64,000 nt of DNA from Sphaerolaimus hirsutus (lineage: Eukaryota; Nematoda; Chromadorea; Monhysterida; Sphaerolaimidae), in contig OZ038456.1 of assembly GCA_964036195.1 (NCBI GenBank), positions 16,988,001 through 17,052,000 on the forward strand. Direction: 5' to 3'. A program made the position numbers and the translations under genes. The notes beneath the pieces were generated by a model. The model was given only the letters and a program-made list of their open reading frames with translations, was not told the DNA's origin and made no database searches. Positions 25,101 to 63,462 of the stretch are shown here, piece after piece. Position 1 is the stretch's first letter. Each line of letters opens with the position of its first letter.

Positions 25101-28100
25101 ATAGATAGCTGGGCGGTTTGGGGGGGGGTAACCCCCCCCCAACCCCCCCCATTCGAGACCCCTGCATGATCTTCAAAAATGAAGACCATAAATTTTTTTT
25201 AAAAACTGCTCATTCTTGAGATATTGTAGTTCAGCACAGTTCAACAGTGTGTAAACAGAAAAAACGTACGAACCATTTTGGGAATTTGGGCAATGTGTGT
25301 ACATGAGTAGGGTTCAAACGGGATTGACTTTTCGGGATCAGGATCGGGATCGGGATTCACTTTTTGAGATTTCGGGATCGGGATCGGGATTGGGATTGGT
25401 AATTTGAGATTTCGGGATCGGGATTGGCCGGGATTGGGGTCACGGGATCGGGATTGGGATAGGCATTTTTCCGGGATCGGGATTGGGTTCTAGGGATAGA
25501 AATTTTGGCCATTTTTCTGGCATTCACAGTTGTTCATAAAGGTCTCAAAACACTGTTGGATGCCAGAAAAGTGGCATAAAATTGACGCTGGGGGTTTGCA
25601 TCCACTTTTTTGCATGCAAAAACGTCATTATTTCACTTTTTATAATTTCCACTAATTTTTCCGGGATCGGGATCCCGGACTTGGGAGTTTCTCGGGATCG
25701 GGATCAGGATTTGAAAACTTTCGGGATCGGGATTGGTATTTTTGAGATTTCGGGATCGGGATCAGGATTGGGGTTTCAGGATCAGGATCGGGACTGGTAA
25801 ATCCCGGAATTTCACGGGATCCGGGATCGGGATCCCGTTTGAACCCTATACATGAGCGAATAGTAATGATAAACATTGGAACAGCGCGTGCCTAGGGTGT
25901 CAAAAAAATTTTGTTATGGAAAATGGAAACGGAAATTTTTTTGCACTTGCCAGAAAACGGAAATAAAATTTCAGCAACAAGGAAAACAAGGCCGGAAAAC
26001 TGGAAATGGAAAAATGAAATTTTGCCAGAAAACAAAAAAAATTGTGGAAATTTCCTGGAAATGCTAAAAATTGCTGAAATTTTGATGGAAAATGGAAAAA
26101 GTCACATAATTGAAAATTTGCATGCATGTTTACCAGTTTGGCTGAAACAGAAAACAGACAATTGAGCCAGAAAAGGGGAATATGAGGCTGAAAAACTGAA
26201 AATTGAGCCTGAAAACGGGAAAAAGGCGGAAAAACTGAAAATTCAGCCGGAAAATCTGAAAATTCAGCTGGAAAAAGGCAGAAAAACTGAAAATTTAGCC
26301 AGAAAAGGGATAATTAGCCAGAAAAACAGGAACGGAAATGGAAAAAAATTTTGTAGTCGGAAAACGGAACGGAAAACGGAAAAATTAATTCAATTACCGG
26401 AAAACGGAATGGAAAATGGAAAAAATTTGCCTGCAGAAAACGGAAACGGAAATTTGTCACCCTAAGCATGCCTGCAAACCAGATTGTTGAAAGTAATCAA
26501 TGTTTTCAAAGTTAATGTAAAATATTCATTTTTAGTCACTCCTGAGTGCAGAAAACGTATAGTAGAATTTTTTACTTTTATTTCCATGGGAAAATGTAAA
26601 AGTAAGTATTTTTGAAAACGATGACCATAATTTTCACTAGAAGTCACCCTTAACCCCAATTTTCATCCTTTTTGCCACTGCACACATGAAGTTGTGCATA
26701 CACTGTAGCGTCTGCCAAGCAGGGTTGGTTTTAGTAAAATTATTTTTACTGAAACTGCAGTAAAATTGTAAATAAATTATATTTTATTTTTATTTTTTCT
26801 TCAATTTTCCATTTTATTTTTATTTTTTTATTCTTCAATTTTCCATTTTATTATTATTTTATTATTATTTTTTTATTATTTTTTATTCTTTGTGACCAGG
26901 ATTAGTTTTTGTGAAATTCTTTTTACTAAAATTGTAGTAAAATTGTATAAAAATTGTATTTGATTTTTTTTCTTCTGAGATTTTGCCAACCCTGCTGCCA
27001 AGTAAAACCAATAATTATCCAAAATTTAGTTGACACAATTTTTGATGTCAACTAGTGTCAGGGGTATTCTAGTTTTCGGCCCTCCTGGGTGTTGGATAGA
27101 TAGCAAATCACTCCTCCGGAGGGATAGATAGCTGAAAATTTTTCTGGGGGGGGGGGGGTTCGCGGGGGCTCAATATATAGGCATAGAAGGGAGGAAAAGG
27201 AGAAAAATTGCTGAAAGTAGGTGAAAAATGGCTAAAAATGGGTATATAAGGACATATAGTACTAAAAATAGCTCAAAATAGGCAGTTAGATGCACGAACT
27301 AGTGATTTTGGAGGTGAAAATCTATATATAGGTATGAAAATAGCGATTTTGAGCGAAAATTAGGGTATAGTTTCCCAAAAATCGCTCCAGATAGGTAGAT
27401 AGCTGGCCGATTGGGGGAGGGGTTTAGGGGATAGTAGCCCAAAATTTTGCCTCCGGGATAGATAGATAGCTGAGCGGCCTCTGGAATAGATAGATAGCTG
27501 GGCAATTTGGGGGGGGGAACCCCCCCTTTCCTACCCCTGACTAGTGTGTGTGACAAGATATAATTGATGACAATTTTTGATGTCAACTTTATGACAAGAT
27601 ATAATTAGTTACATTCTCTGTACAGCATCAACTTCGGTCAATAGACAATAGTGATTATGTATATTGGATAGGGTTGGCACTAGGGTCGAAACGGAATCCC
27701 GATCCCGATCCTAAAACATTTCGGGATTTGGTGGTCCCGATCCTGAAACCTCAATCCTGATCCCGATCCCGAAATCTCAAAAGCCAATCCCGATCCCGAT
27801 CCAGAAACTTTCAAAATCACAATCCCGATCCCGAAAAAATTTATACAATCCCGATCCCGATCCCAGAAAATTTGGTCAACCTCATTAAATGCCCTTTTTG
27901 CATTAATAAATTTTAACCAATGTCCACTTTATGCCTCTTTTCTGGCATCCAGACGTGTTTTTGAGCCTGTTTTGTGAAAACATTGGCAAAAAACGAGTAT
28001 ATTAGAATGTTTTCAAAAATGCCATTATCGATCCCGAAAAATGCCAATCCCGATCCCGAAAGGTCAATCCCGATCCCGAAATCTCAAAAACCAATCCCGA

Positions 28101-31100
28101 TCCCGATACCAAAAGGTCAATCCCGATCCGATCCCGAGATCTCAAAAACCAATCCTCGTTTATCTTTGCATTTCAGCATTTGAGATTTTATCCTATTGCT
28201 GAATGTTTCCGCATGAAAAAGTGTACGCATCTTTTGAATGCTGAAATACATGCTGAATTGACAAACCGCCTAATTTTCAAGAGTACGGACGATTTGAGTT
28301 CAGCAAGTTTTTTTCTATTCAGCATTTAATTCGGCATTTGTCAAAAACGTGCGTATGCCGAATATTTCGGCTTCAGTGTGCGTAGCGCCAATAACTTATA
28401 AATAGCTCACGTTTTATCATAAAAATACACATAAATGTGCAGAAAATACGCCAACTTGCCAAAGAAAGATTGATTAACTTTAGTTTATAGAAATATAAAT
28501 ACAAATTCTGTAAAAAAGAGAAATATATAAACAGTTGTCCCGAAGGCCCCATATAAATATTTATCTACCCACATCAACCACACAAATACAAAAAACATAC
28601 AAACCCACCTGCCCAGCTCTATGTATTCTCTCTCCCAGCCTATTGCTCAATCTATTAATCGAATCAGACAACTGGTCCCGCCGCATAGATCCATATCTCA
28701 AAAAGGTGCCCAGCGCCAAATTGGCACCTGGCGCGGCGCCATGCGGCGGCACTTGGCACCCATCCAAATTCGTGCCGCCGCTGCTAGACTGGCGCGCGTG
28801 GGTTCTGAGGATTGTTGGGAAGTTGAGGGTTCAATGTCCTGGTTTTATGGAGATTTTTTGAATTGTCTGGTGGATAATTGTAGATTTTGTGTCGCCTGGG
28901 GGCAGTCCCAGATAGGGTTCAAACGGGATTGACTTTTCGGGATCGGGATCGGGATTGGTTTTTTGAGATTTCGGGATCGGGATCGGGATTGGCCGGGATT
29001 GGGGTCACGGGATCGGGATCGGGATTAGGGTGTCAACTTTCCGTTTTCCGTTTTCCGCAGGCAAATTTTTTTTCCGTTTCCGTTTCCGTTTTCCGGCTGC
29101 TAAATTTTTTTTCCGTTTCCGTTTCCGTTTTTCCGGCTCATTTTCCGTTTTCCGGCAATTTTTTTCAGTTTTTCCGCCTTTTTCTGTTTTCCGGTTCAAT
29201 TGTCTGTTTTTTTAAGTTTTTTCCACTTTCCAGCTCAATTTTCCGTTTTCTGTGTCAGCCAAACTGGTAAAAATGCATGCAGGTTCTCAATGAAGTGAAT
29301 TTTTCCTATTTCTAGTGAGATTTCTGCAAATTTTTTGAATTCAGGATAAATTTCTGCAAATTTTTATCCGTTTCCGGCAAAATTTCAGCAAATTTTTTCC
29401 GTTTCCGGCATAATTTCAGCAAATTTTTCCGTTTCCGTTTCCGTTTTCCGGCCTTCCATTTGTCCGTTTTCCGTTTTCCGGCAAGTGCAAATTTTTTTCC
29501 GTTTCCGTTTCCGTTTTCCGGCATGTGCAAAAATTTTTCCGTTTCCGTTTCCGTTTTCCGCCAAAAAGTTTTTGTTGACACCCTAATCGGGATTGGCATT
29601 TTTTCGGGATCGGGATTGGGGTCTTGGGATAGAGATTTTGGCCAATGTTTTGGCATCCACAGTTGTTCATGAAGGTCTAAAAACACGGTTGGATGCCAGA
29701 AACGTGGCATAAAATGAACGCTGGGGGTTTGCGTTCACATTTTTGCATGCAAAAACGTCGTTTTTTCACGTTTGATAATTTCCACTAATTTTTCCGGGAT
29801 CGGGATCCCGGACTTTGGAGTTTCTCGGGATCGGGATTTGAAAAGTTTCGGGATCGGGACTGCTAAATCCCGGAATTTCACGGGATTCGGGATCGGGAGC
29901 CCGTTTGAACCCTAGTCCCAGACCCTGTAAAATGTCATGCAAAGTGTCAAAAGTCACGTAAAACGCCCGGTAAAATGGCAATGACGTTTGCCATTTTACC
30001 GGGCGTTTTACGTGATTTTACATAACATTTTACAGGGCCGGGGACTGGCACCAGATAGTTTTAAAATGTGAAAATGGGAGATTATCCTAATGTTTTCACA
30101 CATTTTCATAATCTCCGGACAATTATTCAGCGTTTCCACGTTTTAACGGACAACTATTTACTTTTCCCAAACAACCCCCCCCCCCCAAACCAACTGATGC
30201 GCCAAGGTAATATGCACCGGGGTCTGACTGGCCGCTTGCGCAGCGGCGCTCCTATTCGGACTGGCCTTGTCCACGGGGCGGCCGCGCTCGCCGCCGGTGG
30301 CCACGGTGGACTCGGAGGTGGTGACCACGTCTGTTGTGTCTGTGGGGTTTGGAGGTGGGTGGGTTTTGAGGTGAGGTTGGAGATATTATTGGGGGATTTA
30401 TGGTTTTTACTGATTAGATGGCAACATACTACACCCGAAGGACGTAGCCAGGGGGAGGGGGCGGGGGGGGGCGGCCGCCCCCCCCTTCCCGGGTCGGACA
30501 AAAAAATATGCCAGAAATGGCACTTCCGTAAAGCGATTTTGTTGGTAGATCGGAAAAATTTTGCGCCCTACAGTATATTTCATTGATATTTACCTATAGT
30601 TTGGGACAAAAAAGCACCCAAAATCTGTCCCGGTCGCAGTATATGTATGTAAAATACATACATTTACAGCGGTATTTGGCGCCATTGCCAATGCCAATGG
30701 CGCCATGGCGTGGCGCCTCCGAATGGCGCCGGCGTCAAGGCGCCATTCCTTTACCACGAGGGTCAAATTTTAGGGGGCGCCCCCGTTCGCCGGGCTCCTT
30801 ATACAATCCGCCCCCCCCCCGCTCAAAAATCCTGGCTACACCCACGATCCGAAACTCGACACAACTTATTTAAAGCCTGATATTTACATAGTGAACGGTC
30901 CAGATTTTACCTACTACTGTTTTATCAACACAAACGATGGCAAACAACATTGACAAAACACTTGCACCACGGCAATGAACAGAGAAAAAAAAGTAGAAAA
31001 ATTTAGTCAAATAAAACATTCAAGTTCACATTCAATTTCAAAAGTCCACGATTGCGCATGCAAAAATTTAAATATTTTCAAGCATTTTGATGATACTTTC

Positions 31101-34100
31101 TGACAGAAAATAAACGAGAAATAACTACGCCTTCAAGGAACGTTATCAAACTATCATTACCTCGAATAACTCCCATGCTTCTGAATAAAAGAAAAAAGGC
31201 CCATGAATAACTCGAAATAGCTCCGCCTTTGCGCAACAAAAACGTTCGATTAAATCTGCATACCGTTACACCGTATATCCTCGAATAAGTCCCCCCAGAG
31301 TTATTTATTCGTCAGAAGTTTTTAAGGGGGGGGGGTTTCGAGGGGGATGTTATTTTTTTCTCACACTCACAAGAGGGGGGACTTATTCGAGAGGATGTAG
31401 TGATTCGAGAGGAATGACTTATTGGGGGATATAAGGTAATTTACTAACAATCGCGTTTCCGCGTGCTGCTGCGAAATTGATAAAATCCCGTCTCGGGCCC
31501 GATCGACTCTGGAAAAACAAAAAAAAAGAAATAAAAATGATGGCACGAGAAATGATGAACACATTTACACAGCACAAAGTTAAAAAACTTTATAGATTAT
31601 ATTTTCACTTGTGAGTACAAATACACATTATATATTGTGGATAAAAATAACAATTTTTACAAAAAGTACAACACTGATATAAAAATAGAAATGCAGTGTG
31701 AGTTAAGGGTGGGAAATGCACGGCACGCTAACGGTGCGGCCGTAATTCACCGGTGGCAAATTTTTACTGTTTACCCGTTATTGTACTTTTACTGCACGAT
31801 AGTGCGCGAATAGTTTGGCAGCCGCAGCCGGTAAATGGCTCGTCACGGTAAACCAGAAAATATCAGTAGCGGTACATACAATTCCCATTACCGGGACGGT
31901 ATACCTTTCTAAACCGCAATGTTAGTAATTAAACCCCAGTCTAGAACAAGCAATAAAAATATAAAAAGGAAGCGTAAATTTTCAGCGAATTAGCAAAGCA
32001 GCTGTGTGTAATTTACAAAAAAGCAATTAAGTACGTGCGCGGAATCCCATGAAAAAAACAACAATTTTTACTGAAACGTAAAACGCCATGACAAATGAGC
32101 AGGGGTGGGAAAGGGGTGGGGGTTGGGGGCGGGGTTACCCCCCCCCCCCCAAATCGGCCAGCTATCTACCTATCTGGAGCGATTTTTGAGAAACACGACC
32201 CCAATTTTCGCTCAAATCGCTATTTTTCATACCTTGTTATAGATTTTCACCTCCAAAATCACTAGTTCATGCGTCTCACTGCCTATTTTCAGCTTTTTTA
32301 GTAGTATGTGCTTATATACCCATTTTTCACCCACTTTTAGCGATTTTCACCCACTTTTCTTCCTTCTTTGCCTATATATTGAACCCCCGCGAACACCCCC
32401 CAGAAATTTTTCAGCTATCTATCCCTCCGGAGGAGCGATTTGCTATTTATCCAACCCCCGGAGGGTCGAAATCTAGAAGACCCCTGCAAATGAGCGCCGG
32501 ACGCCATTTTTATTTGGCACCATTTAACCCCCCCACCCCCCAAAAAAAAAAGTTTTAAAACATGACGTTTTAAAGTTTGTCATGACGAATCTGGCAACTT
32601 TTATTAACATGTGGCAATGTTATACACACACCACCACCACCAGTGGGGAGTATCGCAATTCTATACCTGCTCTACGCACGGTAACCGGCGACAAACGCAG
32701 GGCATTCTCGTTGGATCGTAATTCTATACGGGTGCTGGCCCGCTCGCTGCCAATACGACCTTCAAGTTTGAAAATATACAGGAAATAAATAGTGATTTTC
32801 AAATAAATTAATTTTAGGCAACCATTAAACACAGAATTCTACAGTGCGTGCAGTCGTGCAAATTCTAGCATACACATGTATAACTAAAAAAATATCGGCC
32901 TTAAACCGGGCCGTATATTTTTAGGGGACAAACAAAGGCAATAGCACTAAAGTGCAACGTGCAAACTGATTCAGGCATTTGACACTACAAAAATATAGGT
33001 ATTACACTGATAAATCACATTTTTATATATTACACACATAAACTGGTGAATCATTTAAGTTGGAAATTAGTCTATCCATTTTTGGCTGTCATTTGTAGCG
33101 GGGGTGCATTACCAACATTTGCCTACATTACTGCCAAGTGGCACCCCCCAGAGACCCCCATTCTGCCGGTGGAAATATCGACAATGCTAATATCTCTTCG
33201 GTTTTTACTTATTTAGATGATACACTACATATTTATGATTTTAAAATCACATGAGACAGGTCACTGGACAGGGTGCAAAATTAGACCATTTTCATGTGCG
33301 AAAGCATGTTTGCAAAATAATAACTGTTTACTTTATATGCGGACTAATTGTTTGCCAGGTGCGTGTGAAATAATGCTGTAAAAACGCAATACGACAAACA
33401 TGGTGATCGAATTTTTGCTAATACAATTTCGCATACAAAAGGACATAAAAATGGCATTGGCACAAATAACAATCATTGCAAAATATTTAAATTTTTCATA
33501 ACTTCACTCCACCCAAACTTTCTCAATGTCCACGCAAAAAAATAATAAAAAAATGTCAACTCACGAAGTTTACTAGGACTCGGGCTATTACTCTGCTGCG
33601 TTTCCTTCTTAGTGCCCTGATCAATAGATTTTTTCGCCTCCTGTATAAGCTCTTGCGCCCTGGCGCGCTTGTCCGAGGACTTTTGGGACGCAGTTTCACC
33701 ATTTTCACATGGCGCCGACAAATCCTGTGGATGGTATTTTTTAAATTTTGGAAATGTTTTGAAAATAATTTTGATTGACCGATTTTTGGTGGGTTGAGAA
33801 ATATGCCCGATTTCTTAGGGTTTTTTTCAATGCCTCATGTTCGTATTAAAATTTCGATGTCAATATTTGAATTCGATTCAAAAAAGTGCTCAACAAATTT
33901 TGGATGTGTGATGCAGTTCACGATTCTATGTTATTAAAATCAACGGGAACAGTTAAGATATCATAATGACTTTTTGATAACGATTAATGCTGTGATGAAT
34001 TTCACTCTATCTTGTACTGAAGTGAGTATTTTTATTCAATTTTCAGTAAGTTTCAATTTGCACACTTATCTTTGCATGCGCAAATCGAGGAACATTGCTT

Positions 34101-37100: not shown

Positions 37101-40100
37101 AAGAGGTCAAAAAACACTGCCACTAGCGGGAATCGAACCCGCGTCTCTCGTTTGTAACACATTCCGTAACACGTATTCCACACAAAAGCCGCGGGTTCGA
37201 TCCCCTCCAGCGGCAGTGCCTTTTTGCACTCTTTCCCCAACCAACGTGCTGTCCATCGGTGGCGGCGTGTTCCCCGGCGCCGGACGTGACCTGCACGTTG
37301 GCCTCGATCGGCTGGTGCAGGTGCGGCGGGCGGGCCACGCGCGGCTCGCTGTAAGGTTTGTATTGGGTTTGTGAAGTGTGTAAAGTGTATGTTTTGGTGC
37401 ATATGGTGGGATGTATTCGAGTGAAGTTTGTATGTGATATGCACACGTGTGTTGGTTGATTTTGGGAGGATAAAAAAGAGAGAAAATTTTTTTATGGTCC
37501 CGGTCCCATCCCAACCCTAACATTTCAATTTCTGGCTGTTGACATTTCCAGTGCTGTCAATTTCCATGAAAGTTGCCGTGTGTTTACTTTTAAAAGCAAC
37601 GTTCAAAATAATGTTGTCGATAGCACCACAAAGTATAGCATTTAGGGTTCAAACGGGATTGACTTTTCGGGATCGGGATTGTTTTTTTGAGATTTCGGGA
37701 TCGGGATCGGGATTGGCCGGGATTGGGGTCACGGGATCGGGATTGGCATTTTTTCGGGATCGGGATTAGGGTTTTGGGATAGAGATTTTGGCCAATGTTC
37801 TGGCATCCACAGTTGTTCATAAAGGTCTCAAAACACTGTTGGATGCCAGAAAAGTGGTATAAAATGGACGCTGGGGGGTTTTCGTTCACACTTTTGCATA
37901 CAAAAATGTCATTTTTTTCACTTTTTATAATTTTTCCGGGATCGGGATCCCGGACTTGGGAGTTTCTCGGGATCGGGATTTGAAAATTTTCGGGATCGGG
38001 ACTGCAAATAATAGCTTAATAACAAACCCTAATAGCATTGCAATCATAAATTTTGGAAATTATTTTTTTCGAATTTCAGATTGATTTTTTAAAAAATCCC
38101 CGCTTAAAAATAAAACCAACTATGTAATATCGTCGGCCGGTTTCACACCCTCATACGAGGCCAGCGGCGCTTTTCCTGCGAATTTAAACAAAGAACAAAA
38201 TACATTTCCACATGTTTAAATTATGCAAATAAACGGAACCGTACTAAAGTGGGGGTCTATGCAAATAGACTGGTTATAAATAAATTTACCTATAAGGTGT
38301 TAAATGTTGAGTATGGAAAAATATCTGTAAAATCTATACAGTTTTGCGTTTGTGTAGTGCATAATGAGTTGCGGAGAAGTAGCTATTTGAAATGACATGC
38401 GTTTACGCAATTGTAATTATTGGATACATGAGTTATGGCGGACTATAATTTTCCTGAATAATTGAGTATCCTTGTAATGTAATTCTTACTACCACTACAA
38501 GCCATTAAAATTTTTTATGTTTGTAAATATTGATGGTGAACTAATTTTCACTACAGTAAAGACATGAATACCACCTCAATAGATAACTTCGCCATGTAAT
38601 TTGAAAAAGACAACGCTTGAATCATTCCGCAACCAACTTACAGCGTACACAAGACCAAAACATCAGATACCTTAAGATACCTGTGAGGCACCCCCTGACT
38701 GAATTCATGGAAAACATATTACATTGAATGATACTCGATTATCTTTAGACCCCTTTCACACCTTTTTTTCTGTGACGACATCGACAACCACAGCAAATTT
38801 TTCTAGGCGGTTGAACCATTAGACGCACATCACACAATGATGAACAGAATATTTAAATTAGGTTTGAAAACAGAATTCTCATCATATTAAAAGTTCATTG
38901 AAATTCAATTCAAGTTCATCATTAAAAGTTCAGTAATTCAAGTAAAAAGATCCATATTCATCAGATAAAATGGTCAAGTATACATATCACCTGGGCGTAT
39001 ATTTATGTAAGTCAAATTGCAGATGAATCGTGCTTGTCGTTTAAGAGTTACAGACGTTTGAAAAAAAATTGGCCATTGTCGCAGCCCAACAGATGGCGAC
39101 AATGGCAAAAAAATTCAAACGTCTTTAACTCTTGAAGGACAAGCACGATTCATCTGCAATTTGACATACATAAACATACGCCCAGGTGATATGTATACTT
39201 GGCAATTTGCTCTTATGAATATGGAACTTTTTACTATAATTATTGAACTTTTTCATGTTGTTGGAGTCGTCACAGAAAACAGGTGTGAAAGGGGCCTTAC
39301 TCAAAAATAAAATCTGAAATAACAACGAACTATGCAAAAATTCCAACGAAATTCGAATCCCCTCATAAAACTCCCATGTTAAATTGCACCAACGAAAAAC
39401 TCGGAGGGGGTTTATTCAAGGACGTACAGTAAATGGAACACATAAACGATAGCATGCATAAACACGGAGAAGAAACTTTCCAGCCCGCCACAAGTCATGT
39501 TCTAATGAAAGCTAAAGGTCACAAAAGCCAATAAAATAATAAACAGAGAGGTACACTTATAGGCAGGGACGTACACAGGATTTTTGAGCCGGGGGGGGGG
39601 CGGATTGAATACGGAGTCCAGCGAACGGGGGGGGGGCGGCGCCCCCCCTTCCCCCTAAAATTTGTTCCTGTAGTAACGGAATGGGGCTAACGCCAACGTG
39701 TACTATAAGTTATTATTTGTGCCTAAATTCATGGTACCCGGTACTCCGTTGAGGGCATTTGTAGTGATGATTTCACTCTGGACAGTAGAAAAATGAATTA
39801 TATATAACGTGCGGTGCGGAAATGCGCGCTCGCGAGCAAAATTTTTGCTAAGTGGGTACAAAATCGCTTCACAAAGTGACACTTCCTGGCACATTTTTTT
39901 GTCCGGCCCGGGAACGGGGGGCGGCCCCCCCGCCCCCCTGCGTACGTCCCTGTTTTTAGGTGGTGACAGCAAACTTTTGTGTCACTTATCCAACTGTGTC
40001 CCAACTTCGCAAGTAGACAATAGCCAAAAAGTGAAATATGGAGAGTTAAGTGACTAGTAAATTTATAAGTGACAAGCAGCTTTTACAAACTTTGTCACTT

Positions 40101-43100
40101 AGAAATTGTCACTTATTGCAGCAACTTTATCAGGTTAGCGATGTAAAAGCGCCACTTTGGAATTTTGTTAAGAGGGGATTTGAATTTAGTTTCATGTTTA
40201 TCACTTGAATTTGGCATACGGGATCAATCATATATTTTGCAGAAACATTCACGCAACATTTGCAGCCGCGTAACACCGGACAAACCGAACTAAAACAATG
40301 GCATAATACGAAGAAAAAATGGAAAACTACCGCCGGGAGTCTGATCATTGTGATTGGCATCAAACGGCACTTTTTCTTTCTCTTTTTCCAACTTTTTCTC
40401 ATCCGAAGTTGCGGTAGTCAGTTGTTCAATCCCGGTAGCTATAGATTTTAATTCGGCCGACACTTCGGGTGAACCTTTACGTTTTTAGAAAAGTTTTTTT
40501 TACCAAATGTTTTCAGGTGATTTCAGGGGTCTGATAGTGCGCCGGTTCAGATTGTAAATCGCTCCTTTGGATGGATATATCTACCCTCAAAATAACTACT
40601 TAATATCCCTTTAACTACTAAATACCCCTCTCATCTATCTACGTATCTGGAGCGAATTTTGGGCGATTTTACCCCAACCATCACACAATATACAAATTTT
40701 TTTGCACTTTTCGCCCATTTTACCTAAACCATTTTTACCACACCATTTTTACCAAATCGCTTGTTTGGGTTATAAATTACATATATAAATAGGTATAAAT
40801 GTAATTTTATATCTATTGTTGGCCTATCTTAAACCTGATTCAGCAATTTTTTACATTTTCTGCCTTTTACACATTGGAAAAGAACAATATATTGAACCCC
40901 GCGAAACTCTCACAAATTTTTTCCAGCAACTAGGTCCCCAAGTCAGCGTTCTGCTATCGATCGCAGGGCCGTATCCAGGCGGGGGGCTGAAGCATTCCGC
41001 CACCATGTAGGTAAAAATTAAGGGGGGCGGAGCCCCCCCCCCCCGTTCGCCGGGCTCCCTAAACAAGCAGCCCCCCGCTCAAAAATTTCTGGACACGCCC
41101 CTGATCTATCAAACCACTGCGAGTGTCAAAACCCTGGTGACCCCGGAAACAAATAGGGAAAATCTCATACACGGAGCTTTTGAAAATACACACTGCAAGC
41201 GACCGGTAACGGGGAAGCAAGCGCCAAATGCACATTGCAAGCAAGTGTAAAAAGAAGAGTTTTTTATATAAAAATAAGCAGTTTTTTGAAATATAAAAAC
41301 AACAACTACGTTTTTAGTTGTCTTGAGAAATAGAAGAACTCAAGTGCGAATTTTCAACATCATGCGCAAACAGTCTGGAGCTACAAAAGCTTGCAATCAG
41401 ACTCTGAGTAATATTCACACGCTTAACTATATGACAGTCGACGAAAATCCATTCAAAAAGTATTTAAAATACATTTTTTTCAATTTTAAAAACCACCCAC
41501 TCCAGACGCCGTCCCTGGGAGGCGGTGGCAGCGGGGCGATGTGTTCCTCGATCAAATCCATCGGAACTGCAATACCTTCCGCTTGGGATAATTCGCTTGC
41601 TACCGAACGCATGTCCGCGTCGCTGAGAAGTTTAGGGTGGATTTGGGTGGTGAATGGATCGATGTAATTATCATGACAAATTTTTGGGCACTACCCCCTG
41701 ACTCCTCCCTTGCTCAAATAGCTCATCTAGCAAGTGTTCAGCGATTTTCCCCTATTTTCACTGAAACTCGCCAATTTCTGCATATTTTTGCTAATATTCA
41801 CCTTCAAAATCGCTATACTGAGCTGAATAAAATATTTATGTAATTATATACCTATTTTATTTTGAAACTATTTTGGATATGGATTGGATAATCATAAATA
41901 TTTTTATTTTTGCGCGCTTTTTCCCCTTTTCTGCGTCATACAACCCGGCCTATATTGCCGGGCCTATATTGAATCCCAGGTATAAAGAAAAATCTGCAGA
42001 TATCTATGGCGAGCGATTTGCTATTTATCGAACTCTTCTTAATCACAAAATCCTGGAGACTCCTGCAATCAAATGTCTTGAAATGAGAACTCAGACAGAA
42101 AACCAAAAACTGAAAAGTACTGAAAACGTTGCAATTACACGCGCCTTACGCGCACCTTAATTTCCAAAAGAATCTCCCAGAAGAAAACAACTCACAGAGC
42201 ATCTCCCTCTTTAACAACACTAGCCTCCAGCACCAATTGCAAAGTGCAACATTTGACATGTTCAAAAAGGGGTCTCAATTGCAACTTGACTTGGACCCCC
42301 GCGGGGGACTCTGCGGGGTGCACGAAACGTCTCAAGTTTATTGAAACTGATGCTAGGGGTTTGTATCGATGGCGGCCAGCTGGGGGGAGCTCTTCTACGA
42401 TGAAGGACCATTCCTGGGAGGTGGGAATAGTGGTTTTGGAGTGGTTTTGGTTTTGGCTTTTTTATTTAGATTTTTTAGAAGAACTTTTTATAAAGATTTA
42501 CTGAAGAGCTGATTTTACGGCTGCGGTATCCAATGATATTGCAGAATCAAATTTAGACTAATTTTTTACAATGTTGAACAGTTTCTCCCAAGCCACAATT
42601 CCTAAAATTCACAAACCTAAAAACCTAAAGGCAACCTGGTTCCAATTTGTAAAAAAACAACAATTCATCAGTGAGAAGTAACATTTAACAGAAAAGTAAA
42701 TTCTTAACTGTGAAGTGAAATGGCAAGTAAAAAGCCAAAAGACAAATGACAAAAAAAACGTTAACTACGTTTTATTGACTTTGTATTTCACCTTACTTTA
42801 TTAATATACGTATATTTTAACTTACATATAAAATGAACTAAATTGTATCAAACTTATTTATATTATTTTTCACTTTTAATTTTACTTTTTTAAAATTCTT
42901 ACTTTCCATTTAACTTCTAACTTATAAAATAACTTATACTTCTCGACCCGCGGAAATGCCCCGCCCCCCCCCCCCCTAAATAACCTTATCCTCCCAAACT
43001 CCACTTCTCGCATCTTTATACATTGTAGCCAATATTTCCAAAGTTTCGGAATCGTCCGGCCACACAATAAGCCCCCTGAGCGGCTGACTTATCGTTGGCT

Positions 43101-43914: not shown

Positions 43915-46900
43915 ATGGCGTCAACGGAAGTTCACACTGCGTCATGGCTTGGAAACATGGACCTCACACAATATTTAATGGAATTTAGATCGAAATTATC
44001 TGCAAATAAGTTGGAATCTGCGGCTAAATCTTTCTGCGAGGACAAGAGTTTGCCATTTGAAGCGTGCACACCTCTAATTGGCATCGTGCCAGAAAGCCAA
44101 TATTTGTGTGTTCTCCGATCGGAATGCGCGTTCGTTTGCTCGGGAAGGCTCGGGATATTGATTGTATTTTTCAAAATGTGTCATAGTGTCATATGCCGAA
44201 ATTTTGTCGATTTTTTACAAACACTAAATATCTGTTTATCCTTCTGCGATATTTGAATGCGCTGATACGCGATGGAAACGCATCAGCGAGCTGCTGTAAA
44301 TTGTACGATCATCACGTTGACGCAACGTTGAAAAAAGAAATTATTACGTAATCAAATACCGTATTTACTCGAATAATCCCCCCGGGGAATTATTTTTTCG
44401 TCAGACATTTTTGAGGGGGGAACTATTCGAGGGGGGGAATTATTCGAGTGGGGGGATTATTATTTCATCAAAATTTTCTAGCATACACACGTATGTCCTG
44501 TTTCTATTTGGTCTAATCAAACCACACACTACTGTTTTGCTTGGTTTGACTTCATCAGTTGTTTTTTAAAACAAATAAGCTTTATCTACCTGCTGTCGTA
44601 GGGGAGGGGGGATTATTCGAGTGGGGGAATTATTATTTCCTCACTCATCTAACAGGGGGGAATTATCCGAGGGGGGGAATTATTCAAGTGGGGGGAATTA
44701 TTCGAGTAAATACGGTAGCTCTACTGGTTGCTAAAAATTTCCGCGTAGAAAGTATTTATCAGTCAAAATTCCATAGCAAGATTGACATTAATTATTTGGG
44801 CATCAATTTGGTGGAAAATCTGTCAGTTTTTCAGTAAAGATAAAAGGCGGTAAAAATATGCTTCCCCCACTTCACAGTGACATAACTCTGCGTTTTTTCC
44901 CGAAAACATGCATAATAACTGGTGATGTTGTCTGCAATGAAAATATTCTGGACATAAACGAACACGAAAAGTGGACACATAAAGTGACTGTTTTGGCAGA
45001 TAGAATTGAGAAGGATTTTAACGCTGTCCCATTGAGAAAGTTTGTGGGCGGAGGGGTTCAAATTTTTTCAGTCTATTTGTATTTTGTTTCTTTGAATTTT
45101 ATTTTGAATTTTCAATCACCTTCGAAACTTATCAGCTAACACATATCTATCCCTTTAACTTTTCTCAGATACGAACGGTGAGCCACAAAGCAACCATCTC
45201 CCACAGAATATTTGAAAAAAATTGGCACCTTTCCAACTTGATTACACAGGATTGCGCCTGTCTCTCGGGTGTCGCATATTCCGCAGATTTATGTTGGTTC
45301 GCTTAGAGAATTTCGGACACACGCTTTTGATAAAGTACTGTTTGATAAACAGAGCGATTATCAAAGTGTGAGGATCTTACATCATCCAGGTATTGATTTC
45401 TGCCTAATTTTCTGAATGTTGCCAATCAAACTTCTGGGGCCAGTTCCGCAAGTGGAAAAGTTAAGAGTTAAAATTTAAGAGTTGAGTAAAATGACAAATG
45501 ACAAGTTATGAGTAAAGTTAAGAGTTAAGAGTTGAGAAAAAAGACAAATGATTTTACTCAACTCTTAACTTTTAACTTTACTCTTAACTTATCATTTATC
45601 ATTTTACTCAACTCTTAAGTTTTAACTCTTAACTTTTCCACTTGCGGAACCGGCACCTGGGCACCCAGTAAAAAAAGTTTCGTGTTCGGATTAAATTTTT
45701 TGTCACATAGCATCTGAAAAAGGTATCCCTAAACATTCATAAACATCCCACAAATTCCCACATTTTTTCAGAATTTGGAAATACATTAATTTTGGATGGT
45801 GAAATCAATTTGTCAGAATCGGATGACATTTACACGGAGAGCCTCATGCGATTTTCTGAAATTAATTATTCTAATTTGGAGGTACTGATTCTCGGCGGCG
45901 GTGATGGAGCTTTGTTGAATAAAATTTTGGCACAAAAACCAAAATTTGTAACGATGTTGGAGGTGAGCACAAATTTTCAATATTTGAATTATTTTGAAGC
46001 AATTTTAATAATATTATTTTTTAAAGTTGGATGAAACGGTTTTGGAAGCGTGCCGTATGCATTTGAGATCTGTTTGTGGTAGCTCATTGGATGAATTGAG
46101 AGGGACTTCACATGAAGTTGGTTTTCCAAGTTTTGTTGTTTTTTCAAAATTTTAACAATTGGAAAAAATTTCAGATCATCATAGGTGACTGTTTTCCAAC
46201 ACTGCAAACGTTCTCTGAAAATGGCAGAACGTTCGATGTAATTATTTGCGATTTAACTGATGTGCCTGTGTCAACTGAAGCTGAATGGTTTGCAGGGGTC
46301 TCCAAGATTTTGGCCCTCGCGGGGGCTGGATAGATAGCAAATCACTCCTCGGGAGGGATGGATAGCTGAAAATTTTTCTGGGGGGGGCTGGCGGGGGCAC
46401 AATATATAGGCTTTTTCAAGGCAGAAGGGGGAAAAATCGCCAATGATCAGTTAAAAGTAGCCAAAAGTAGCTTTCAAATGGCTAAAAATAGGTATATAAC
46501 CATGTATATAGCCGGAAAGCACGATTTTGAAGCAGGGACGTATCCAGGATTTTTGAGCGGGGGGCTGCTTGTTTACGGAGGCCGGCGAGCGGGGGGGGCG
46601 TTGGCGCCAGTGCCATGGAACGCTGTATATGTATGTAAATGTACATACAAATACAGCAAACAGCACACATTTGCGTATATTTATAAAGATTTCGGCCACA
46701 GGGAGCAAATCTGCTACTAATACATTACGTCTGGTGAAAAATGCGCGCTTGCGCGCAAAAAATTTTTACGCTGACGTTGAAAAAGTTGCATTTTTCGGCC
46801 ACTTTCTGGTCTCACCCCGGGAAGGGGGCTCCCCCGCCCGCCCCTGTATACGGCCCTGTTTTGAAGGTGAACAACTATAAAAAGGTGCGAAAATTAGTGA

Positions 46901-48476
46901 TTTTGAGCGAAAATTGGGGCGAAATTTCTCAAAAACCACTCCAAATAGATAGATAGCTGAGCGATTTCGGGGGGGTGGGTGGTCTTTGGGGGTAGTAGCC
47001 AAAAATTTTGCCTCGGGATAGTTAGATAGCTGAGCGGCCTCCGGGATAGATAGATAGCTGGCCGATTTGGGGGGGCAGCCCCCCCCCCCCCCTTGGGGAC
47101 CCCTGATGGTTTGTCGTTCTGAGAACTATCCAGCGAATTATTATGCGCCCAAAATTGCAAAACTGCAAATAATGCGCCTAAAATTATATATGTCTTAGTC
47201 GAGCAGGATGCTTACATACGCATTTTCACAAATAGAAATATTTCAAAAAGAATAAATATCGGATTCGTGTACAACCAACATATGTTTCGTGCCTGAACTT
47301 TTATGAATAATATTTATATTATTAACGATGACGTCATGATGGAGTGTTTCCGGCCGAGTATATGGATTGTATTAAAAATGGCTATAAAATTGCTCCACCC
47401 ATTCCAGAACATAGCAAATCTACTCCATCCCCCAAACACCCCCACTTGTCCAGTCTGCGCCCCGCGTGCTCGTCCGGCGAGGCCGGCAGCGAGCTGTGCG
47501 CCGACTTTTGGAGTTCATCGATGCACGAGTGTACGGCCTTGGCCGCGCTGCCGCTGCTCAGACGCAAAACTGGCAGATTGCTTATGCACGTTGGTTTAGA
47601 CTGGGGCCAGTCCCGCAAGTTGACAAGTGTTTTACTCTTGACTTGACTCTTGACTTTGTCACTTGCGGAACCGGCAAGTGACAAAGTCAAGAGTCAAGTC
47701 AAAAGTCAAGAGCAAAGTCAGGGTTCAAGTGAAGAGTCAAGAGTAAAGCACTTGTCAAGTTGCGGCACTGTTCCCTGGGGTGACTTAGGCAAGTGGAGTC
47801 GAAGTAGAACACGTAAAAGTAAAGTAAAAGTGAAATGAAAAGTAAAAAGTTTCAACTTCAAAGTAACACTTGCAACTTTTTACTTCTCATTTTATTTTCA
47901 ATTCCACACGCTTGTGATGCTGATTTTTCTCTGGTTGGAGTGTTCTGTTGCTCAGGGACAGATTTATAGCTGTTTTTGGTATTTTATGTTCGGAACAAGA
48001 TTGTGTTATAGTGCTGAAAATGTCGATGTTTGATGTAATTTTGGATATTTATGTAGTTTGTCCAGTTTGTAGTTTTCCCGTTTAAACGGTGGGTTTTTTA
48101 TTTCTGATATCAACTCCTGTCTCGAACACGACTGAACAATCAAATGCCCATCCCTTACAAAATGAAAGGTCCGCATGAACCCTGCAGCGATGTGCACTTA
48201 TTTTAGAATGTACCAAGTACAAATCTGTCAATTCTTACCAACTTTTCACACATGTGGGCGGAGCTGGTAACCGAAAGCTGATTGGCGGTTTCGAAAATTT
48301 ACTGCAAAAGCTGTTACACGGAACGAACTTGCAGTTCGATAAAGTCACCAAAATGGTGCCAGGATTTTTAGAGACGTGAGTTTTTCCTCATTTTTCTTCA
48401 AATTTCCGATAAATTTTTTCGCGTTCTTTTCTGCAGATGGGCTTTTTACCAGATCGGGGAAGTATTGCAAGAATGA
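43915..48476 (+). CDS. SMS: Spermine synthase, 8-9 exons, with a transposon on one splice site
   Basis: Exons: 43915-44129, 44878-45043, possibly a 9-nt microexon 45169-45177, 45287-45389, 45772-45962, 46027-46116, 46175-about 46291, 48188-48375 and 48437-48476 (stop), about 372 aa; human SMS has 366. Key matches: RILHHPEFGNTLILDGEINL, ESDDIY, LILGGGDGALL (nucleotide-binding loop), ICDLTDVPVST (catalytic Asp), LFTHVGGAGN and VPGFLETWAFYQIG. It transfers aminopropyl from decarboxylated SAM to spermidine, making spermine. The N-terminal exons give the family's extra dimerisation domain, more diverged. AATAAA occurs at 48575-48580. The exon 3 start is uncertain (45250 is an alternative). An in-frame ATG at 43897 is an alternative start. 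Exon 6 is hit by the element at 46293-47105, so this allele may be impaired. Confidence 0.85.
44358..44716. mobile_element. TACCGTATT / GGGGGAATTATTCGAG MITE
   Basis: Left ACCGTATTTACTCGAATAAT, right ATTATTCGAGTAAATACGGTA. Three or more GGGGGAATTATTCGAG units lie inside each arm. In SMS intron 1. Confidence 0.8.
45434..45660. repeat. Foldback element (AGTTAAGAGT arms)
   Basis: Ends CTGGGGCCAGTTCCGCAAGT and ACTTGCGGAACCGGCACCTGG. The arms are strings of AAGTTAAGAGTTAAG and its complement. In an SMS intron. The termini match the 47601-47777 copy. Confidence 0.8.
46293..47105. mobile_element. CAGGGGT hAT-like element inserted at SMS exon 6 / intron 6 boundary
   Basis: Ends CAGGGGTCTCCAAGATTTTG and CTTGGGGACCCCTG. 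The octamer ATGGTTTG is duplicated exactly (46285-46292 and 47106-47113). The interior has GGATAGATAGCTG words as in the other copies. It contains the second element 46533-46858. The duplicated octamer spans the inferred exon end TGGTTT and the first base of the donor GTCGTT. Confidence 0.93.
46533..46858. mobile_element. CAGGGACGTATCCAGG hAT-like element with perfect 8-bp TSD
   Basis: Ends CAGGGACGTATCCAGGATTT and CTGTATACGGCCCTG. TTTTGAAG flanks both sides (46525-46532 and 46859-46866). Nested in the element above. Confidence 0.93.
47601..47777. repeat. Foldback element (AGTCAAGAGTCAAG arms)
   Basis: Ends CTGGGGCCAGTCCCGCAAGT and ACTTGTCAAGTTGCGGCACTG, then TTCCCTGGGG. The arms are AGTCAAGAGTCAAG words folding near 47665. 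In an SMS intron. Confidence 0.75.
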
Positions 48477-49078: not shown

Positions 49079-49194
49079 ACCGTATAGCCTCGAATAAGTT
49101 CCCGGGGGAGTTGTTTTTCGTCAAAATTTTTTGAGGGGGACTTACACGAGAGGGAACTTTTCAAGGGGTAGGACTTATTCGAGGATTTACGGTA
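49079..49194. mobile_element. Short TACCGTA / CTCGAATAAGT MITE
   Basis: Left TACCGTATAGCCTCGAATAA, right TTATTCGAGGATTTACGGTA. It lies immediately 3' of the small membrane-protein gene. Confidence 0.7.
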
Positions 49195-49204
49195 GTATCA
49201 CATT

Positions 49205-50191
49205 TCACACTACATTCGTACCCAAACTCCGTGAACTGTCCGTCATTTTGTAAACCCTCTCATTACTCAAATCCGCGCTGTCGAAACTCATCGCGGTGTA
49301 TGTAGAAAATAACGGCGGTTGTTTGGTGCCGAACCATTTGATGTAATATCGGCATGATATGGTAATTAATAGCCAGATCACAAAGATGGCGAATAATGCA
49401 CCAATTAGGATTACTGTAATTGGGTGGGAGGAGTTTGGTTTAGTATTGGTACTGAATTTGAGCAGGGGTCTTCGGAGGGAGATTACCCCTTCCCAAACGC
49501 TCGGGAGATCTATACTCGGCGGACATCACACTTGGTATGAAAATCTACCATGACTCATCTGAATAATGAACCAAAAATTAAACAGTTTTTCCATCATAAT
49601 ATTTCGTTTTTATGATGTAATAATCAATTACGAAATTTTTCACAACATTTTATTCATTTAATTATTATGGTAGGTTTTCGTACTAAGTGTGCTGTCCGCC
49701 GAGTATAGTCACTACCGTATTTCTCCGTGTAAAGGACCCCCCGTGCACAACACCCGGGGTGTTATACAGCTGCATAGCACCCCGGGGGTGCTATGCTCGG
49801 TTTCAAAAAGATCACCCGATTTGAATTACTTAAATACGTGGCGTGGCGCGCGCCACTCATTGTATGTAGTTCCGCGGCACGCATTTTTCCATTGAATTGG
49901 TGCACACTGGGAAATAAAAAAATTGGATTTTTGTGCTTCCGTGTATAACACCCCCTGACCTAACACCCGGGTGTTATACAAGGTTTAAAAAAAGGTTGCT
50001 GCAAAGTGTCTCAATTTTGTATAGCTCCCGGGTGCTTTACACGGAGAAATACGGTAAGCGTTCTTAAATAAACTCTACAGAACTCAGAAAAAATGCTAAC
50101 CTGTGCTCACTTCGAGTGTCTTCAAAGTGACCAGATCTGCCGAATTACCAATAATTTCATCCGGGATGAAATTTTGCATTTCACTTTCCAT
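49205..50191 (-). CDS. 99-aa single-pass membrane protein, two exons, unidentified
   Basis: Exon 1 is 50191-50101 (ATG preceded by an in-frame TAG). Exon 2 is 49413-49205 (TGA). The donor GCACAG|GTTAGC and acceptor CCAATTACAG join in phase for exactly 300 nt. The protein starts MESEMQNFIPDEIIG, an acidic stretch of about 29 residues. One membrane span follows, VILIGALFAIFVIWLLITIS. The basic boundary CRYYIKWFG then leads into a Ser/Thr/Tyr-rich tail ending SRSLGTNVV. Charge distribution suggests N-out, C-in without a signal peptide. The hydrophobic C-terminal TNVV could bind a PDZ domain (inference). The intron is filled by two MITEs (49511-49707 and 49713-50055). It converges with SMS. No family recognised. 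Confidence 0.7.
49511..49707. mobile_element. TACTCGGCGGAC MITE (copy 4)
   Basis: Ends TATACTCGGCGGACATCACA and TGTGCTGTCCGCCGAGTATA, the best-preserved copy. Six bases separate it from the next element. Confidence 0.85.
49713..50055. mobile_element. TACCGTATTTCTCCGTGTAAAG MITE
   Basis: Ends TACCGTATTTCTCCGTGTAA and TTACACGGAGAAATACGGTA. Subterminal CACCCGGGGTGTTATAC words repeat in both arms. It shares only the outer TACCGTATTT with the CTCGAATAA elements. Confidence 0.8.
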
Positions 50192-60665: not shown

Positions 60666-63462
60666 TCACTTGTTCCCACCAGCCACTCGAGTGGCGGCAG
60701 CACTCGTTCCCGCTTTAGCTGCCGCTTGCATTTGCACCGCACTGGTTGTTGGCAAAGTCATTGCCAGGGCTTGGGTTATTGTTGATTGCCTGTTTTGGGA
60801 GACGGGAGAAATTGGGGGTCGTGTTTTTTCCGCTGGTGTTTTTGCGATTTCGGTTTGATACAGTTTGATGGAGTAAACGTAAATATACTCGGCGGACCGC
60901 AAAGTATGCGCAGAATCCTACCATAACTTTATGAATAAATCTTGTGATAAATATTGTAATAAAGTTTTCCATTGTAAAGACAAAATATTACGATGAAAAA
61001 GTGTAAAAACTTTGGTTCATTATTCAGATGGGTTATGGTAGGTTTCCATACTAAGTGTGATGTCCGTTGAGTTTACTCACTGTCAACGCTGGTCTGGCGA
61101 TACCTGTGTGGCGCCACGATGAAAACGCCTGAGTTGGCGCCAATACCAAATGTGCCAGTGCGCTTCTGGCGCTTGGCGCCTTCGGGCTGGCGCTTTTTCC
61201 ATAACTAGTTGTAAGCATTCGAATCAGTGACGTAATAACAACATGCTAACTTTCAATTAGAATAGGATATTTGTCACGCAATAAAATACATACCAAACTT
61301 TATTATACCCAATTTTTCCCAGCGGATAATATGGAACGGAAATTTTTTCTTTCCTACGATAAGTAAACCCTCATGACATGAATAATACTGCGTATTGTTC
61401 CACCCAGTTGTGCTACGAAAATGATAAATGATTTCAAGATTTTCGTGATAGATATTTATGTATTTTATCATGGTTCTAAGAAGTGCACAATTGCGTGCGT
61501 ATTCGGATGGGAAAAACGCCAGGAAACTCCATGGTAACTTTCTATAGTAAAACCCCAAACACAGTGTTGACAAATATTGGATAACCCACAGGCTACTTGT
61601 CAACTGGTCTGTGTCAACTCAAATTTTAGTTTCTTATATTATATTTTACCGATCTCCCAATTCACTTGCCGTAATAATAATTTTTCAACACAGCCGCATG
61701 TGCCCTTGGAAATCGCTTTGCCACCGTGAAGCCAAAATCTGAGTTCACAGATCATTTGACACACACGTGTCAACTTGTATGGAAAAGTATAGCAAAAACA
61801 AACGAGAAATAAATGACATTTCAAATGGCTCAAACAAAAAAATGCAAAAAGTTGAAACTCCCCGGCCGGGAATTGAACCCGGGTCTCGCACGTGACAGGC
61901 GCGGATACTCACCACTATACTACCGAGGATGATGTCCTGAGCCTTCTAAAAATTACTCAGGTACCTTTGTATTTATTTTTCTAGAATTGGAACGAGTTCT
62001 AAATTGGAAGTTCTATTTACGAGTGAACAAGTTTGCTTACAAGGTGATTTAAGTTGCAAGTAAATCTGACATAGCCGGTAAATTTCTGTAAAAAAACTAT
62101 CATGTTTTCTCGAAATTCTCCCATATGCCAGAAAATTTTGACGGAGCGGGTTGATCCGAGGGGGGTTCATTAAAGGGAATGGCTAACCAATCAATAATTT
62201 TGCTTTACTCTCAAATTTGCCTCTTGCGGAACCAGTACCTGGTGCCAATCCCAGACCCTGTAAAAAGCCCTGTAAAATGTCAAATGTCATGAAAGTGTCA
62301 AAAGTCATGGAAAATGCCCTGCAAAATGGCAACCAAGTTGCTACTTTGCAGGGCCTTTTTCCATGACTTTTAACACTTTGCATGACATTTGACATTTTAC
62401 AGGGCATTTCCCCTGGTAAAGGTGTTACCTTCCCAGTCTCCCAAACACAGTAAAATGTAACCTGTGATGCAAAGTGTCAAAGTCATGTAAAAATCACGAA
62501 AAATGTCAAATACATAAGTATAAGAATATAAAAAACTTACATGAATTTTGACACTTTGCCAACTCATTTGACATTATTTCAGGGCGCCTGTGACCTGTAA
62601 AATTTTTGAAAGTACCTAATTTTTACATTTCTTATCGTTAAAATGCTGAATACAATTTCAACAGAGGGTATTCCGAGGATAGTGAATTCAAGGTGGTGTT
62701 TTGAGGGGATACGAAATCCCCTATGCATTGAAATGTAACTTACCACTTTCCTCTAGAAGACTCTAGACTCGTAGAACAGTTCTCAATTCTAAGTAAAAAT
62801 ACAATAGATACCTAAGTAATTTTTAGAAGGACCTGGACATCATCCTCGGTAGTATAGTGGTGAGTATCCGCGCCTGTCACGTGCGAGACCCGGGTTCAAT
62901 TCCCGGCCGGGGAGTGTTCTTTTTTTCATTTTTGCTGAACCTAAAACGTTTTGATCCTTATAGCCTGCCTGGCCTTTTCAAAAAATAGATAAAAAATATC
63001 CGTCCGATAAGCATCAAAATATATTCATAACGGCAGATGAATAAATACACCTATTGTTTAACACATCGCAAACTTTTTTCTCAATACACCAATTTTTTTT
63101 GAATATCTGTAATTTTAAATTTTCGCTTTGGTGCTTCGAATGGCGCGAAGAGCGCCAGCGCCATTTGGTAAGATCAGCACCAATAAATTTTTAGCATCGC
63201 AACTTGAAACCACACGGCGCCATTTTCCAAGAATGTTCAGCGCCATTACCACCCCTACCTCAAATTCACCCGCTCCAATCATAAACAGCGTCATTTTTCA
63301 CTCACTTATAATTGTGTTTTCTTGCCTTTGTCGGCAACGAGTGTCTCTGTTTGATCGATGACACATTCGTTCCATGTGCAGCGTTCGCATTTGCGCAGTG
63401 CCCGTTTGTCATGGATGAAGATGTCCTTTTTACGTTGTTTGGTGGTTGTTTGCTATCGGTGC
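60666..63462 (-). CDS. Unidentified protein, two 3' exons (partial at 5' end)
   Basis: Exon 63462-63306 (acceptor CCACCCCTCTAG, donor TTATAA|GTGAGT) encodes NNVKRTSSSMTNGHCANANA and SIKQRHSLPTKARKHNYK. It joins in phase, K codon AA|G, to exon 60789-60666 (acceptor CGTCTCCCAAAACAG), which encodes QSTITQALAMTLPTTSAVQM and ends ATRVAGGNK and a stop. The protein end is low-complexity, rich in Ser, Thr, Ala and Asn, with a basic patch. No domain is recognised. Earlier exons should lie beyond the window. The 2.5-kb intron holds a MITE, a foldback and two tRNA genes. Confidence 0.5.
60884..61074. mobile_element. TACTCGGCGGAC MITE (copy 5)
   Basis: Ends ATATACTCGGCGGACCGCAA and GTGATGTCCGTTGAGTTT. 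Inner blocks as in the other copies. Confidence 0.75.
61858..61929 (-). tRNA. tRNA-Asp (GTC)
   Basis: 72-nt cloverleaf: acceptor TCCTCGG pairing CCGGGGA-type 3' strand, D-arm with GTGGTGAGTA, anticodon loop CTGTCAC (anticodon GTC) on stem CGCGC/GTGCG, T-arm CCGGGTTCAATTCCCGG. No intron. A and B boxes intact. It is the inverted duplicate of 62843-62914. Its downstream T-run is weak. Confidence 0.93.
62235..62415. repeat. Foldback-family element
   Basis: Left CTGGTGCCAATCCCAGACCC, right CATTTTACAGGGCATTTCCC. The arms of GTCAAATGTCATG and GTCATGGAAAATG words fold near 62335. Confidence 0.75.
62843..62914 (+). tRNA. tRNA-Asp (GTC)
   Basis: Identical in the mature 72 nt to the minus-strand copy at 61858-61929, with anticodon GTC. 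It is followed within a few bases by a T7 run at about 62920, a good Pol III terminator. The 5' flank (TTTTTAGAAGG...GACATCAT) is also shared with the other copy. Confidence 0.94.

Follow-up and report, generated by a model that had tools for sequence, protein, structure and literature searches.

A nested hAT-type insertion across the inferred exon 6 donor of a predicted spermine synthase gene in the nematode Sphaerolaimus hirsutus

Transposable elements of the hAT type are defined by short terminal inverted repeats with CA...TG ends and make 8-bp target-site duplications. In maize, insertions of the hAT elements Ds and Ds1 in exons are reportedly spliced out. A second related system is that of the Introners, for which it is reported that the target-site duplication or the element end can supply a splice site, and that Aureococcus copies add 12 bp, i.e. 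four amino acids (PMC9860276). As for spermine synthase itself, a Drosophila study describes an intronic transposon allele of Sms with <0.05% of the control transcript and reduced viability (PMC5668419). In the present paper we describe a nested insertion at the inferred exon 6/intron 6 border of a predicted spermine synthase gene, found in a 64-kb stretch of the S. hirsutus genome, the whole of which is referred to below as the window. A literature search made without the species name returned nothing recognisable as this spermine synthase insertion.

The gene was modelled by hand as eight coding exons, with homologues as a guide to the joints (Table 1). With exon 6 ending at TTT and exon 7 starting from CGATGTGC, the joined translation forms a single open frame of 365 codons, without internal stop or frame shift and with splice-compatible joints. 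This product matched the Pfam family Spermine_synth (E 1.2e-21) and the spermidine synthase tetramerisation domain (E 5e-11), both above cut-off, and its best match among solved structures was the spermine synthase 3c6k (E 4.2e-51, 177 bits, residues 135–359); a spermidine synthase came second with 68 bits. Named arthropod spermine synthases stood at the top of the protein search, the best with 42% identity, and the best matches were arthropod proteins at about 37–46%. Judged by its sequence the gene is a spermine synthase, with aminopropyl transfer to spermidine as its predicted activity. Alignment with homologues showed that GGGDG, DLTDVP and, at the C-terminus, FLETWAFYQ are all retained; in the human enzyme the Asp of DLTDVP is catalytic.

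Repeats were also seen in the introns of this gene. Intron 1 holds an inverted-repeat element (44357–44717) with TACCGTATTTACTCGAATAATCCCCCC ends that are 96% complementary over 27 nt, and ends resembling these by eye lie near 49080–49195 and 49713–50055. Fold-back repeats are present in intron 3 (45436–45657, with 106-nt arms at 92%) and intron 6 (47603–47775, with 51-nt arms at 82%) and have one 33-nt stretch in common (85%). Further away in the window, two tRNA-Asp(GTC) genes that score equally with Rfam lie on opposite strands, at 61858–61929 (−) and 62843–62914 (+), and an ORF at 2050–2475 (+) matches a C2H2 zinc finger (zf-H2C2_2, E 4.2e-7), although not at the cut-off of that family. 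When 10 ORFs other than those of the spermine synthase gene, out of 40, were scanned with Pfam, the only matches were to C2H2 zinc fingers in one and to SWIM in another, all below cut-off.

The insertion on the inferred exon 6/intron 6 border is bounded by two copies of ATGGTTTG that are identical at 8/8 positions, an octamer found elsewhere in the window only once, as its reverse complement, at 7200. The probability of an 8-bp match at one particular pair of ends is, by simple arithmetic, approx. 1.5e-5, with the terminal repeats not yet counted, and the ends of the insertion, CAGGGGTCTCCAAG and CAGGGGTCCCCAAG, match as inverted repeats at 13/14 positions. The duplication takes in A, TGG, TTT and the first base of the donor (G); the left junction reads TTT|GCAGGG and the right junction TTT|GTCGTT. 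With the insertion present, exon 6 continues into GCAGGGGTC, and the assembled copy has its old donor shifted 821 bp downstream, beyond stop codons. A perfect duplication covering the last coding bases and the first base of the donor, a GC in place of GT at the left junction and a GT donor displaced past 813 bp had all been proposed in the sequence-only reading of this DNA, and each reads as claimed. That reading had further proposed a hAT-like element, of which the hAT type and the placement at the inferred end of exon 6 hold, but not the view of it as a single element, since the 813 bp comprise two insertions.

Both the outer and the inner element have short terminal inverted repeats with CA...TG ends, both are flanked by 8/8 target-site duplications, as are three relatives of the outer element, and the outer element has five relatives within the window. 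On these features it is assigned to the non-autonomous hAT-type elements. Among the possible 8-bp target positions in the gene model, approx. 1.7% touch a donor dinucleotide and 3.4% any splice dinucleotide, so that insertions of this kind are to be expected in a transposon-rich genome and the exactness of this one is unsurprising.

The inner element carries its own perfect 8-bp duplication, and the outer element without it measures 479 bp. The inner unit is absent from all five outer-element relatives in the window (5/5), each of which reads through the nesting point. The simplest order would be that the outer element arrived first and the inner one later, although a ready-made composite of the two could also have moved into the site. 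The disrupted state of the gene has probably survived one further transposition, from which no absolute age follows. Partial relatives of the inner element lie at 22398–22474, 39564–39643, 30780–30839 and 41037–41103.

Identity of the five outer-element relatives to the focal copy ranges from 0.66 to 0.78. The corresponding K2P distances are 0.27–0.47, compared with 0.125–0.182 among the three closest relatives; the focal copy thus stands apart, and dating of the insertion by divergence was dropped. All four family copies with an aligned 5′ end read CAGGGGT; if the terminal repeat can take over as a donor, as considered below, the same could therefore happen wherever a copy lands on an exon end, in one phase of three.

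Table 1. Gene model, insertions, candidate donors and outer-element relatives (positions within the window)
Feature	Position	Strand	Details
Predicted spermine synthase gene	43915..48476	+	Eight coding exons, 365 aa; hand-made joints, homologues as guide
Exon 1	43915-44105	+	End among the least certain
Exon 2	44878-45055	+	End among the least certain
Exon 3	45287-45389	+	Hand-made model
Exon 4	45772-45962	+	Hand-made model
Exon 5	46027-46116	+	Hand-made model
Exon 6	46175-46291	+	117 nt, phase 0 to 0, encodes ...DLTDVPVSTEAEWF
Exon 7	48188-48375	+	Starts CGATGTGC, phase 0
Exon 8	48437-48476	+	Includes stop; hand-made model
Left target-site duplication	46285..46292	+	8 bp, ATGGTTTG
Whole insertion	46293..47105	.	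813 bp in total; second element lying within an outer one of hAT type (479 bp net)
Right target-site duplication	47106..47113	+	8 bp, ATGGTTTG; final G and next T belong to displaced donor TTT|GTCGTT
Left inner duplication	46525..46532	.	TTTTGAAG
Inner nested hAT-type element	46533..46858	.	326 bp, ends CAGGGACGTATCCAGG and CAGGGCCGTATACAGG
Right inner duplication	46859..46866	.	TTTTGAAG
GC donor TTT|GCAGGG	joint 46291/48188		Unchanged 365-aa protein; unlikely
GT donor GGG|GTCTCC in terminal repeat	46298..46299	+	Would add Ala-Gly, 367 aa; score -6.94
GT donor ATG|GTTTGC	46288		Frame shift, stop after 294 aa; score -1.67
Upstream cryptic donor GAT|GTAATT	46238		In frame, 347 aa, without DLTDVP; score -0.01
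Exon 6 skipped			117 nt; in frame, 326 aa, without DLTDVP
Read-through into element			Stop after 303 aa
Further in-frame GC sites within element, on paper	46313, 46319, 46325
Further in-frame sites in exon 6, on paper	GC 46280; GT 46262, 46268
Outer-element relative	24651-25164		Perfect 8-bp duplication CATGATCT
Outer-element relative	27059-27539		Perfect 8-bp duplication ACTAGTGT
Outer-element relative	32100-32486	minus	Perfect 8-bp duplication CAAATGAG
Outer-element relative	near 496-789	minus
Outer-element relative	41749-41812	minus	Weak partial match

The products that the filled allele could still make depend on the donor that is used. Donors were scored with a matrix of human donor frequencies, which may miss the donor rules of this species, as both the inferred original donor and that of exon 2 are weak by it; this counts against a reading based on mis-splicing. 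The inferred original donor, TTT|GTCGTT, scored −9.19, a value equalled or bettered by 89% of the 3,414 plus-strand GTs in the window, and the exon 2 donor, GGG|GTTCAA, was nearly as weak at −7.53, provided that this joint is correct; the competing exon 2 joint TTT|GTGGGC scored −2.49. The only GT donor that retains both the whole of exon 6 and the frame is GGG|GTCTCC, six bases inside the element. Overall, the donor scores point towards the damaging products, whereas a rescue is compatible with the frame and with the total length of the segment. The sequence-only reading had foreseen a null allele, use of the GC donor or of G|GTTTGC, or conversion of the transposon into a new intron; a null allele is indeed possible, but the list omits GGG|GTCTCC, the in-frame skip of exon 6 and GAT|GTAATT, and what it called a new intron would amount to the lengthening of an intron already present.

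Our preferred reading, to which we assign a probability of roughly 0.5, is that a non-autonomous 479-bp hAT-type element landed across the exon 6/intron 6 border, duplicating 8 bp, that a second hAT-type element of 326 bp then inserted into it, and that the transcript would now be mis-spliced, either by in-frame skipping of exon 6 or through cryptic donors such as the frame-shifting G|GTTTGC, with a reduced or null spermine synthase copy as the outcome. The anatomy is read directly from the sequence, while the succession of the two insertions and the effect on splicing are inferred. The scores of ATG|GTTTGC and GAT|GTAATT, set against that of GGG|GTCTCC on the human matrix (Table 1), support mis-splicing. 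A damaged copy could persist in a sequenced animal, as flies homozygous for a transposon allele of Sms are reported to survive, at a reduced rate (PMC5668419). On the other hand, the frame remains open through exons 7 and 8, which retain 12/17 strongly conserved columns, and the presence of a second insertion suggests that the first is not brand new, both of which fit a gene still in use and count against loss.

It is unlikely, though it deserves more weight than any other alternative, that the terminal repeat supplies a replacement donor, with GGG|GTCTCC at 46298 joined to exon 7, Ala-Gly added after Trp-Phe and the gene still working. In addition to keeping exon 6 and the frame intact, this donor scores better than the inferred original and close to that of exon 2, and with the two extra residues the DLT-to-LIL stretch would measure 19 residues in place of 17, within the homologue range of 19–23; the 12 bp that Aureococcus Introners are reported to add to the transcript are a precedent (PMC9860276). 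However, 73% of the GTs in the window score as well or better, the nearby G|GTTTGC is stronger, and the Trp would be shifted by two residues from the LIL helix, a spacing conserved in all 17 homologues with the Trp. The complete form of this proposal, in which the hAT terminal repeat replaced the destroyed donor 6 nt inward, Ala-Gly was gained in a shortened stretch before LIL, and the element, enlarged by the second transposon, became the start of intron 6, is in our view quite improbable.

In favour of an exon 6 end at TTT, a TGA codon in frame just ahead of the acceptor of exon 7 requires exon 7 to start, and exon 6 to end, in phase 0, which TTT|GT fits, and the conserved Trp is followed after four residues by the LIL position both in the window and in 17/17 of the homologues with this Trp (19 were aligned out of 59 found, and 17 of the 19 have it). 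The exon 6 boundary consequently rests on the frame and the Trp spacing, not on the quality of its donor. The donor position had earlier been called well constrained, which is borne out by these two features but not by the donor score or by the segment from DLT to LIL, with 17 residues here compared with 19–23 in the 19 aligned homologues (20 in 13/19). The right-hand TTT|GTCGTT may have drifted after disuse or may always have been weak. Both the very poor donor and the short segment would be explained if the end of exon 6 were misplaced, e.g. by a missed small exon, and the element merely exonic or merely intronic; this we regard as doubtful, as the phase of exon 7 is forced, the Trp-to-LIL spacing is exact, and the empty-site alternatives G|GTTTGT and GTC|GTTCTG either run into a stop after a frame shift or have a still lower score.

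A phase-2 joint from G|GTTTGT in the empty site was discarded, as it reads into TAG in exon 7 and the in-frame TGA bars an earlier acceptor. An older exon end past TTT, which in the empty site would read VVLRTIQRIIMRPKLQNCK and then a stop, was dropped, as exon 7 covers that part of the protein gap-free. U1 duplex energies were computed but left unused, since nothing ties the best duplex to the donor register and a shifted pairing apparently produced the value obtained for TTT|GCAGGG.

Could the copy have been a decaying paralogue or pseudogene before the insertion? The weak donors would agree with this, and strongly conserved columns are retained at 45/50 in exons 4–6 but at 10/15 in exon 7 (Fisher p 0.043) and at only 2/8 in exon 3 (p 0.0003). 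The low value for exon 3 indicates that exon 7 is not uniquely relaxed, and with exon 8 added the difference is no longer significant (12/17, p 0.11). The pattern is compatible both with loss of function and with its absence. Given also the uninterrupted 365 codons, the splice-compatible joints and the retained motifs, we hold prior decay to have a low probability.

Donors of the GC class need a strong context, such as GCAAGT. TTT|GCAGGG, the GC donor that now occupies precisely the former site, is in frame and would leave the protein unchanged, but it has T at −1 and GG at +5 to +6, without a consensus of this type, and its use is very unlikely. Finally, although there are C and G runs within the element, an assembly artefact is barely credible, as misassembly does not make 8-bp duplications that are perfect around the outer element, around the inner one and in three other family copies.

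The event belongs to a well-known kind, which it exemplifies cleanly, the splicing of maize Ds and splice sites at transposon ends being known already. Should the allele prove common and expressed, it would be a natural test of how a hAT end can take over a donor with the frame left intact; should it be null, it would join the other transposon alleles of metabolic genes. As with maize Ds and Ds1, a non-autonomous hAT-type element lies in a gene and splice sites at or near its end would decide the mRNA; the maize elements, however, lie in exons with splicing reportedly shown at the RNA level, whereas this one sits on an existing donor and is described at the level of DNA. The dSms e allele of Drosophila is likewise a transposon in a spermine synthase gene, but the fly insertion is inside an intron, whereas ours is on a splice site (PMC5668419). 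In Introners an element end can serve as a splice site, for which the candidate here would be the donor of the terminal repeat, in phase though weak; Introners create new introns in many genes, whereas the S. hirsutus insertion would lengthen one existing intron (PMC9860276).
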